Assembly: GCA_030388825.1 (NCBI GenBank)
Contig: CP128835.1
Coordinates: 3,404,001-3,468,000, forward strand
Reading direction: 5' to 3'
DNA length: 64,000 bases
Source: Rossellomorea sp. AcN35-11
GTDB taxonomy: Bacteria > Bacillota > Bacilli > Bacillales > Bacillaceae_B
Shown: in pieces, positions 18,380 to 58,757 of the stretch
Layout of the letters: the number at the start of each line of letters is the position of its first letter
Position numbering within the stretch: position 1 is the first letter of the stretch
Notes under the pieces: generated by a model
Databases searched by the model: none
The model's input: only the letters and a program-made list of their open reading frames with translations
Told to the model about the DNA's origin: nothing
Position numbers and translations under genes: made by a program

Positions 18380-18476
18380 CTTATTCAACTCCTTCCAACA
18401 GATGCTCTTACAAAAGCGATGAATTGCAGCGGAACATCGGGATCAATGACATAAGGGGATTCCCCCTCAAGCCACA
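18380..18476 (-). ncRNA. Probable L19 (rplS) mRNA leader
   Basis: From the promoter to the rplS start the minus strand reads a leader of about 97 nt with a strong hairpin (GAGGGG-GAAT-CCCCTT), then CCCGATGTTCCGCTGCAA and TTTGTAAGAGCATCTGTTGG. This order resembles the ribosomal protein leader known upstream of rplS in Bacillus, thought to serve L19 autoregulation. I compared it from memory only; an Rfam covariance search would decide. Confidence 0.5.
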
Positions 18477-38295: not shown

Positions 38296-38484
38296 TTATA
38301 CGCGTTCTACTTTACCAGATTTCAACGCTCTTGCAGAAACCCATACTTTCTTAGGCTTTCCGTCTACAAGAATTCGAACTTTTTGCAGGTTTGCACCCCA
38401 AGTACGCTTGTTCGCATTCATTGCGTGAGAGCGAGCGTTACCTGAGCTTGCTTTACGGCCTGTTACTACGCATTGTTTTGCCAT
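38296..38484 (-). CDS. rpmB: 50S ribosomal protein L28
   Basis: The ATG at 38482-38484 follows GAGGAGG and gives 62 residues, the usual size. The sequence ([49 protein letters not shown]) matches Bacillus L28. It stands between a promoter candidate at 38547-38575 and its terminator, so it is probably a single-gene transcript. Confidence 0.98.
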
Positions 38485-38575: not shown

Positions 38576-38635
38576 ACAACTTTCTATAATGCAATACTAC
38601 AATTAAAACCTTTCAAGAAAAAATACTTTACACAT

Positions 38636-38758
38636 AGAAAAGCGGAGGCGGCTTGGTCAGAGGCGACAGGCATAAGGCGAGTAACCCGGAAAGGCGTTCT
38701 TTGCCTTTTTGGGTTACTCGCCTTATGACCCCGAGCCTCTAGCCGCCGGAGCTGGACA
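38636..38758 (+). repeat. Hairpin repeat family A, copy 1 (complete)
   Basis: A 123-bp element beginning AGAAAAGCGG and ending GAGCTGGACA. It folds as nested stems: GGCGGCT (38647-38653) with AGCCGCC (38741-38747), AGAGGC (38659-38664) with GCCTCT (38735-38740), and a long perfect inner stem from CATAAGG to CCTTATG with a small AAAGGC/GCCTTT hairpin at the tip. It lies in the 600-bp space between rpmB and spoVM. Confidence 0.88.
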
Positions 38759-38761
38759 AAT

Positions 38762-38884
38762 AGAAAAGCGGAAGGGGCTCGCCCTGAGGCGACAAGCATA
38801 AGTGGAGTAACCCGGAAAGGCGCTCTTTGCCTTTTTGGGTTGCTCTGCTGATGACCTCGAGCCTCAAGCCCCTGGAGCTGGACA
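38762..38884 (+). repeat. Hairpin repeat family A, copy 2 (complete, diverged)
   Basis: A second 123-bp copy, 126 bp from the first. It differs from copy 1 at many stem positions, but pairing is kept: GGGGCT with AGCCCC, TGAGGC with GCCTCA, and an inner stem GTGGAGTAACCC with GGGTTGCTCTGC that needs G-U pairs. The unpaired flanks AGAAAAGCGGA and GAGCTGGACA are conserved. Confidence 0.88.
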
Positions 38885-38887
38885 CAC

Positions 38888-38980
38888 AGAAAAGCGGAGG
38901 CGGCTTGGTCAGAGGCGACAGGCATAAGGCGAGTAACCCGGAAAGGCGTTCTTTGCCTTTTTGGGTTACTCGCCTTATGC
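38888..38980 (+). repeat. Hairpin repeat family A, copy 3 (3' end lost)
   Basis: It is identical to copy 1 through the inner stem and then diverges after CCTTATG, so the right outer arms and the GAGCTGGACA end are missing. The remaining spacer to the spoVM terminator (38981-39043) shows no gene. Near identity of copies 1 and 3, with a diverged copy 2 between them, suggests recent duplication or conversion. Confidence 0.85.
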
Positions 38981-39043
38981 CCTCCCAATCAAAGACCCGG
39001 TTAGCGATTTTGCACACTTTTCAATTCAGTGCACCACATAAAC

Positions 39044-39082: not shown

Positions 39083-39163
39083 TTATTCTTTCTTGAATGT
39101 TCCTAACATCGCCCTCACAAGTCCACCAAGGAATTTTGGTAATTTAATTGTATAAAAACGCAT
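39083..39163 (-). CDS. spoVM: Stage V sporulation peptide SpoVM
   Basis: SpoVM is a 26-residue amphipathic helix that binds the convex forespore membrane and anchors the spore coat protein SpoIVA. The sequence here is MRFYTIKLPKFLGG followed by LVRAMLGTFKKE, nearly identical to B. subtilis SpoVM, including the Pro at position 9 that is needed for curvature sensing. The ATG follows GGGAGGG at 8 nt. The gene is too short for usual gene finders. It lies 113 bp after thiN and is expected to be under sigma-E; I could not define its promoter. Confidence 0.96.
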   Translation of the reverse strand: MRFYTIKLPKFLGGLVRAMLGTFKKE

Positions 39164-58247: not shown

Positions 58248-58502
58248 AAGTTGAGTTCCGCTGCAAGGATGCTCGCTTTCCGGGGCTTGAGGTGAGCTCT
58301 CTCGGCTGCGCCTCCGGGGTCTCACCTGTCCAACTGCAGGGCTTAGGGGGGCGAGGTCATAAGCCAATTCTCTCAAAGAAGCAAAAATTCCTTTCTGAGA
58401 GAATTGGCTTATGCTTGTCGCCCCTCGGCAAAGCCCTTCCGCTTTTCTTACTGTCCAGGCTATCCCCTCAGGAGTCGAGCATTCTGGAGCGAGAATCAAC
58501 TT
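58248..58502 (+). repeat. Inverted-repeat element family B, interrupted by a family A copy
   Basis: The left part (58248-58331) and right part (58451-58502) carry matching imperfect inverted ends: AAGTTGAGTTCCGCTGCAAG and the reverse of GAGCGAGAATCAACTT, each next to GGATGCTCG / CGAGCATTC. The left part also has a GGTGAG...CTCACC stem. It resembles a short repeat that I recall from many Bacillaceae genomes. A family A element sits between the two parts, so family B was here first. Confidence 0.75.
58327..58448 (-). repeat. Hairpin repeat family A, copy 4 (nested, minus orientation)
   Basis: Read on the minus strand it begins AGAAAAGCGGAAGGGCTT and ends with the GGACA end of the family. The stems are GGGCTT with AAGCCC, AGGGGC with GCCCCCCT (one extra C) and a perfect 18-bp inner stem from CATAAGCCAATT to AATTGGCTTATG. 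The inner stem sequence is unrelated to that of copies 1-3. CTGTCCA occurs on both sides of the insert. Confidence 0.83.
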
Positions 58503-58757
58503 TATGAGCATTTATCGATAAGATAAATCAATACCAAAATGTTGTTAGAGACTCAGATAATTAGAGATATTTTGTTCTTTATTAGAATGTTCATTGCCAC
58601 ATTTAGCTCTTTCACCTTTAACTCTTAAATAAGTTGAAGGGAACTTCGTAGACACAAACTGATGTACAACCGTCCTAATCAGGATCGGTTCCCCTCATCT
58701 TTTCGGGAGAACATACGTTAAAAAAGCCACATTCTTTTAGAAAAGAACACAATATAA
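58503..58757. other. Gene-free stretch between the repeats and the pyrE terminator
   Basis: 255 AT-rich bp. A loose inverted pair (GAAGGGAAC near 58636 and GGTTCCCCTC near 58690) may form a hairpin, but I see no gene, promoter or T run that makes its role clear. Confidence 0.45.

Follow-up and report, generated by a model that had tools for sequence, protein, structure and literature searches.

The interval between rpmB and the gene that we take to be spoVM, in the window (the whole stretch of 64,000 nucleotides that was analysed), carries an array of a repeat whose units of about 120 nt fold as one nested hairpin that has been kept through compensatory change. The plus strand of the unit, which reads AGAAAAGC...GAGCTGGACA, is the strand kept foldable. 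We give an even chance to the idea that the element is a chromosomal repeat of the REP/BIME kind, with a single-stranded hairpin as its working form, which spreads at replication forks.

The array occupies positions 38636-38982 on the plus strand. It consists of two complete 123-bp units and a third that is cut at its 3′ side, with a start-to-start period of 126 nt on which the sequence, a repeat finder and TRF agree. The features of the interval and the further copy in the window are as follows.

38296 to 38484, minus strand: rpmB, which borders the array on its fixed side; an open reading frame with orthologues in 80 of 80 related loci.
38627 to 38632, plus strand: TTTACA, immediately 5′ of the fixed end of the array (direct reading).
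38636 to 38758, plus strand: unit 1, complete (AGAAAAGCGG...GAGCTGGACA); a nested hairpin with an outer, a middle and a long inner stem; covariance-model score 137.5 bits at 38638-38757.
38671 to 38727, plus strand: inner hairpin of unit 1; arms 38671-38695 and 38703-38727, 92% complementary, with 7 nt between them.
38759 to 38761, plus strand: 3-nt junction of units 1 and 2 (direct reading).
38762 to 38884, plus strand: unit 2, complete, its stems altered yet paired; covariance-model score 126.8 bits.
38885 to 38887, plus strand: 3-nt junction of units 2 and 3 (direct reading).
38888 to 38982 (genome C1:3442888-3442982), plus strand: unit 3, cut short at its 3′ side; 99% identity to unit 1 over 95 nt.
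39083 to 39163, minus strand: 26-aa open reading frame, the neighbour on the truncated side; presumably spoVM, as named in the preliminary description.
58328 to 58446, minus strand: fourth copy, in composite form, a single unit lying inside a second repeat family; covariance-model score 96.6 bits, flanks read.

Direct reading bears out the preliminary description in that the stems GGCGGCT/AGCCGCC and AGAGGC/GCCTCT of copy 1 are replaced in copy 2 by GGGGCT/AGCCCC and TGAGGC/GCCTCA, both arms changing together, while the two copies agree at both ends (AGAAAAGCGG and GAGCTGGACA) and in the joint GACA(G/A)GCATAAG. The three copies at a 126-bp period that it reported are present, but the third is not complete: unrelated sequence follows CTTATG and the 3′ outer arms are lacking. 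The fourth copy that it mentioned was located by the covariance model at the position given above. Where the window has TTTACA most of the related loci printed have TTGACA, and the element, if present, comes after it.

The plus strand of copy 1 folds at -78.7 kcal/mol (z = -9.0 against dinucleotide shuffles; z = -8.7 for the minus strand) and that of copy 2 at -64.7 kcal/mol (z = -5.5; minus strand z = -3.4). Covariation was assessed in two alignments. The first, A1, holds 56 of the 70 distinct full units from the same genome, near-duplicates having been omitted (104 units were detected); the second, A3, holds one unit from each of the 26 best-scoring loci retrieved from other genera, which were found by the model and aligned by sequence only. 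Both sides change in 22 of 43 pairs in A1, with 283 double-change cells against 85.5 ± 8.7 after shuffling, and in 34 of 40 pairs in A3, with 233 against 70.9 ± 8.4. The covariation score is 0.340 in A1 (at most 0.100 with a slid partner) and 0.610 in A3 (at most 0.150). Under a tree-aware null at E ≤ 0.05, an approximation of R-scape in which column substitutions were re-placed on a FastTree tree in 100 simulations, significant pairs made up 12 of the 40 structure pairs across genera (A3) and five of the 43 within the genome (A1), and in neither alignment did any fall outside the predicted hairpin. With shuffles and slid controls concordant, the covariation goes beyond chance, and by this test it was not lost as more copies were aligned. 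Across genera there is almost no variation in the loop strands GACAAG and ACCTCGA; something may therefore bind at these loops.

The mismatches tolerated within the stems differ between the two strands. Among the cells of paired columns, 216 are G.T (G.U), and A.C, into which G.T turns when the opposite strand is read, accounts for 10. Four columns are mostly G.T, retaining it in 37, 42, 42 and 54 of 56 units; when these are left aside the counts are 41 and 10, five of the ten A.C cells lying in a single column of a variant stem. Of 70 units, 69 fold at lower energy as the plus strand under RNA parameters and all 70 under DNA parameters; the plus strand also folds better in all 26 loci of other genera. 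A cruciform site, one of the readings in the preliminary description, is unlikely, because both strands would then have to fold and the plus strand is kept foldable far more than the minus strand.

Paired changes can also be produced with no selection on a fold, when template switching between the hairpin arms during replication corrects a quasi-palindrome. The long near-palindromic arms, found at replication-oriented sites, would suit such a process, as would remnants that look by eye like hairpin deletions and indicate that slippage occurs. Correction of this kind should nevertheless yield perfect palindromes and erase G.T and A.C equally, whereas G.T stays and A.C is rare. Nor does it fit the loop strands conserved across genera, or one shared site at which the arms, read by eye, diverge stepwise through single mismatches. 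We regard this explanation of the paired changes as quite improbable.

The preliminary description suggested a mobile structured element, and DNA and covariance-model searches locate copies throughout the genome, the genus and the order. The genome of the window (Rossellomorea; contigs C1 of 4.19 Mb and C2 of 0.63 Mb) contains at least 104 units, partial ones included, at 40 or more sites, which are intergenic by a simple ORF rule. These figures come from iterated profile searches and are lower bounds, since only regions around the candidates of a DNA search were covered; that initial search gave at least 98 matches, and 40 of 49 first-look candidates were scored. Contamination of the assembly is given as 9.23%. 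Within Rossellomorea, matches were found in 34 of 36 genomes by DNA search and in 34 of 35 by the covariance model. The genome G014 has no match by either method and is the sole single-contig genome of the genus set of which this is true; it may branch early, since a conserved neighbour gene also matches weakly there. Across Bacillales, matches to the covariance model came from 89 of 120 genomes, spread over 53 of 73 genera, under stricter filters and with at most 30 candidates scored per genome. With the window sequence as a blastn query, which may miss diverged copies, one of 72,556 plasmid records and none of 50,697 phage records matched. The family looks chromosomal because of this near-absence from plasmids and phages.

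Orientation was analysed in the genome of the window (G000) and in the single-contig genomes G007 and G029, in which 119 arrays were placed (40 of the 43 sites listed in G007 and 39 in G029). Fork direction was set with dnaA as the origin and the terminus half a genome away, and gene neighbours were called by a simple longest-ORF rule. In G000, dnaA (C1:1010758-1012072) is matched in two pieces with a TGA, which probably reflects an error in the assembly. Removal of 24 composites and the collapse of shared sites left 60 independent stand-alone groups, 49 of which are head-on to the fork (p 8e-7, groups treated as independent). The bias is also seen in gene-neutral contexts, where the neighbours converge or diverge: 17 of 21 groups are head-on (p 0.007, groups again treated as independent). 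Composites have no head-on bias, nine being head-on and 15 co-directional, and the strand of one array (L039) is ambiguous, minus in one reading and plus in another. We prefer the independent-group count to earlier counts of 34 of 40 in the genome of the window and, among the matches listed, 70 of 95 in three complete genomes, since those mix gene direction and shared sites. Stand-alone arrays thus point against the fork, and at most of their sites the plus strand therefore corresponds to the nascent lagging strand.

The tolerance of G.U on one strand together with compensatory change is the classical signature of RNA, and a functional RNA is one competing account: the plus strand would be transcribed and the hairpin would act in the transcript, through 3′ UTR stability, ribosome stalling after the stop codon or a repeated small RNA. 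The position of the arrays relative to genes is in keeping with this. Where the upstream gene lies on the same strand, the array begins 0-6 nt past the stop codon in 15 of 21 independent groups and 7-56 nt past it in none; in one of the 21 the stop codon lies 23 nt inside the array. Sites also persist, 29 of 61 site groups being common to at least two of three species. On the other hand, the commonest setting, in 31 of 60 groups, is antisense to both neighbours, where a plus-strand transcript would need its own promoter. Copy number and site occupancy vary, and a scan with Rfam 15 gave no match to the array at the gathering score. We consider a functional RNA somewhat unlikely. The sub-threshold Rfam matches over the array, mostly to microRNA families, were taken as chance foldback matches.

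The two ends of the arrays behave differently. The AGAAAAGC end is fixed, and the opposite end is usually cut inside a further unit. Among 96 stand-alone arrays the far end is a truncated unit in 33, a full unit followed by part of the next in 30 and a complete unit with no clear partial in 19; the other 14, labelled as cut between position 100 and the end, were not matched by the unit-end pattern and were unsortable by the rule. A partial next unit is visible by eye in three of these unsorted arrays (L046, L327 and L328) and in one sorted as complete (L341), several of the 19 go directly into a terminator A-tract as judged by eye, and one array in the sorting (L066) is a composite. The cut far end is not universal, given the 19 complete ends, the 14 unsortable ones and 22 composites with exactly one unit. 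The far end was within 6 nt of an opposing stop codon in none of 44 groups.

At one stop-codon locus, a clear unit follows the conserved last codons in six of the 27 loci printed (the query genome included); a degenerate copy is present in one, remnants that look by eye as if the hairpin had been deleted are present in several others, and some have nothing. Short remnants of similar appearance, as expected for unstable palindromes, were seen by eye at L122, L368, L372-L374 and L376. A sharp target motif was rejected, the insertion-site logo having only a weak A-rich preference before AAAAGC; composites were removed from this logo because pooling them made it misleading. Target-site duplications were looked for at C1:955824 (an interspecific, element-free comparison), at one stop-codon locus and at a composite site, and none was clean apart from AGCTGGACAG, a sequence that the unit itself has at its end. 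By direct reading, neither of the ends AGAAAAGC and GAGCTGGACA is the inverted repeat of the other. Each of the 29 multi-unit arrays in the genome of the window lies on one strand, head-to-tail; in G028 a single partial copy adjoining an array (L191) was called on the opposite strand.

A second hairpin repeat family (GACTCCTGCGGGAATAGCTGGACAGGTGAGACC...GCGGAAAGCGAGC) occurs in the window at about 58300-58560 and at L286, L291, L322 and other loci, often with one 123-bp unit at a fixed place. In 22 composites exactly one unit lies within this second family, immediately after AGCTGGACAG; looser patterns give 23 or 24, and the copy at 58328 is of this kind. Two copies of the second family with no nested unit were found with one pattern in the regions searched. 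That the composite units sit right after what is also the unit's own end is a hint, short of proof, that this end may act as a landing site. The composite units also resemble one another, which suggests that composites spread in their composite form as well.

Comparison with a strain of the same species (G024) showed differences of array length at shared sites. There 22 of the 40 sites in the genome of the window were matched, with flanks 97-100% identical, and all were occupied; most of the G024 regions were chosen for carrying the element, so empty sites would be missed, and one region chosen by its flanks had three of three sites occupied. Array length was unequal at 15 of the 22 matched sites, by about whole units at 13, as in one array of 621 nt that measures 496 nt in G024. 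At the locus in the window 347 nt are reduced to 95 nt of one unit, with flanks that match 100% over 700 nt on each side.

In the flank-chosen region, each of four other species has the element at the first two sites, in one case as a degenerate remnant; at the third it is present in G021 and missing from G004, G026 and G028. The rpmB site itself recurs: the distance from the rpmB start to the fixed end is 152-154 nt in G000, L080, L082 and L083 and 175 nt in Neobacillus mesonae MER TA 107 (L130), and the element is missing at that place from five other Neobacillus loci inspected (L103, L106, L107, L111 and L122). From this sharing across strains, species and rpmB loci, sites are long-lived, through either old inheritance with loss or a hot spot. 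The mobile element of the preliminary description accordingly stands in part: copies are dispersed, but no new insertion was seen among the matched sites and many site groups are shared between species, so that mobility is something we infer.

In the account that we favour, of a REP/BIME-like repeat, the plus strand would work as a single-stranded hairpin. It would be inserted or copied at forks where it is the nascent lagging strand, with copying that would start at AAAAGC and have no fixed stop. Slippage or unequal recombination would then lengthen or shorten the arrays, and hairpin deletion would account for their decay. The candidate agents are a host HUH/Y1 protein or template switching at the fork, and the element need not benefit its host. 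A fuller version, which we offer tentatively and hold to be rather doubtful, is a replication-coupled chromosomal satellite: the nascent lagging strand would receive copies of the hairpin that begin at a fixed point and have no fixed stop, and the hairpin would use its own end (AGCTGGACA) as a landing site, giving tandem arrays and nesting, and it would be kept across Bacillales by a host enzyme and not by a transposase of its own.

Known lagging-strand HUH elements, according to one account (PMC6006769), use the lagging-strand template. Plain IS200/IS605 behaviour does not fit unmodified, because the lagging template here carries the other strand and not the foldable one. The Y1_Tnp regions of the genome of the window (L075-L079) held no element at E < 1. 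Three chromosomal Y1_Tnp/RAYT-like genes (L075-L077; C1:1403039, 1527473 and 1229050) have no adjoining element. Y1_Tnp is found in 36 of 36 genomes of the genus, including the element-free G014, and for this reason its presence is not discriminating. A Y1/RAYT gene linked to the element thus finds no support, none being element-flanked in this genome; a RAYT may yet act at a distance.

One fixed end, one truncated end and an orientation relative to the fork are also the traces expected of a reverse-transcribed retroposon, in which minus-strand RNA would be copied from its 3′ end with the nascent lagging strand as primer. The foldable strand is, however, not the presumed RNA strand, and reverse transcriptase (PF00078) has matches in no more than 17 of the 36 genomes of the genus, with none found in element-rich genomes such as G007, G026 and G028. 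Its matches in the genome of the window are all on contig C2. Reverse transcriptase was rejected as the mobiliser because it does not co-occur with the element, no match having been found in 19 of the 36 genomes, and we think a retroposon highly improbable.

The element works like REP/BIME yet misses three of their defining features. According to two accounts (PMC3733652, PMC6006769), REP/BIME share with it a high copy number, an intergenic location, palindromic structure and mosaic, grouped copies, and in both cases a connection with single-stranded DNA and with replication has been put forward. The REP/BIME unit, however, is 20-40 nt long and the present one about 120 nt; REP hairpins have a tag on their 5′ side, GTAG or CGTC, which is lacking here; BIME units alternate in orientation, whereas the present arrays run head-to-tail; and the RAYT (TnpA-REP) gene is flanked by its element, which is true of no such gene in this genome. 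GTAG never occurs in the first 20 nt of units. At the 3′ foot the letters are GGAG in 46 of 56 units in A1 and 12 of 26 in A3, and GTAG in one and four, respectively; by eye, GTAG is at the 3′ foot of many composites.

Intergenic stem-loop repeats have been described closer at hand: bcr1 of the Bacillus cereus group (147-167 bp) and Bhal-1 of B. halodurans (74 bp), as given in one account (PMC2267715). By description they are stem-loops of a similar size class in Bacillus relatives. Reportedly, bcr1 is specific to the B. cereus group, and on this description it would differ from an element that occurs in 53 of the 73 genera examined. The BOX elements of Streptococcus pneumoniae are dispersed structured repeats whose inner modules vary in copy number; here it is the whole unit that is repeated, with one array end fixed and the other usually truncated. 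MITEs of DDE transposons are small, non-coding, dispersed and hairpin-forming, all of which holds for the present element, but its ends are not inverted repeats. Integron attC arrays (e.g. VCR) are similar in length and tandem layout. Among the matches listed from open-licence papers there was no description of the family, and matches to fragments of the unit were unrelated.

The element is thus an abundant structured repeat of many bacilli genera that is unmatched by Rfam. It lends itself to joint measurement of covariation, strand preference and replication orientation, and so one can ask whether selection acts on RNA or on single-stranded DNA. Since array length differs between strains of one species, the arrays could be used as a typing marker; they may also be a source of spurious open reading frames. 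A 134-aa minus-strand frame that spans the array in the window was rejected as coding because periods elsewhere are often not multiples of three (e.g. 124 and 125).

Two further observations concern the window. Its sole at-threshold Rfam match is the L19 leader (RF00556) at 18399-18440 on the minus strand. In addition, rpmB is on the same strand as rpe, as in the window, in only three of 80 related loci (L080-L082) and on the opposite strand in the other 77; as the array adjoins rpmB, there is therefore an inversion break near the array.
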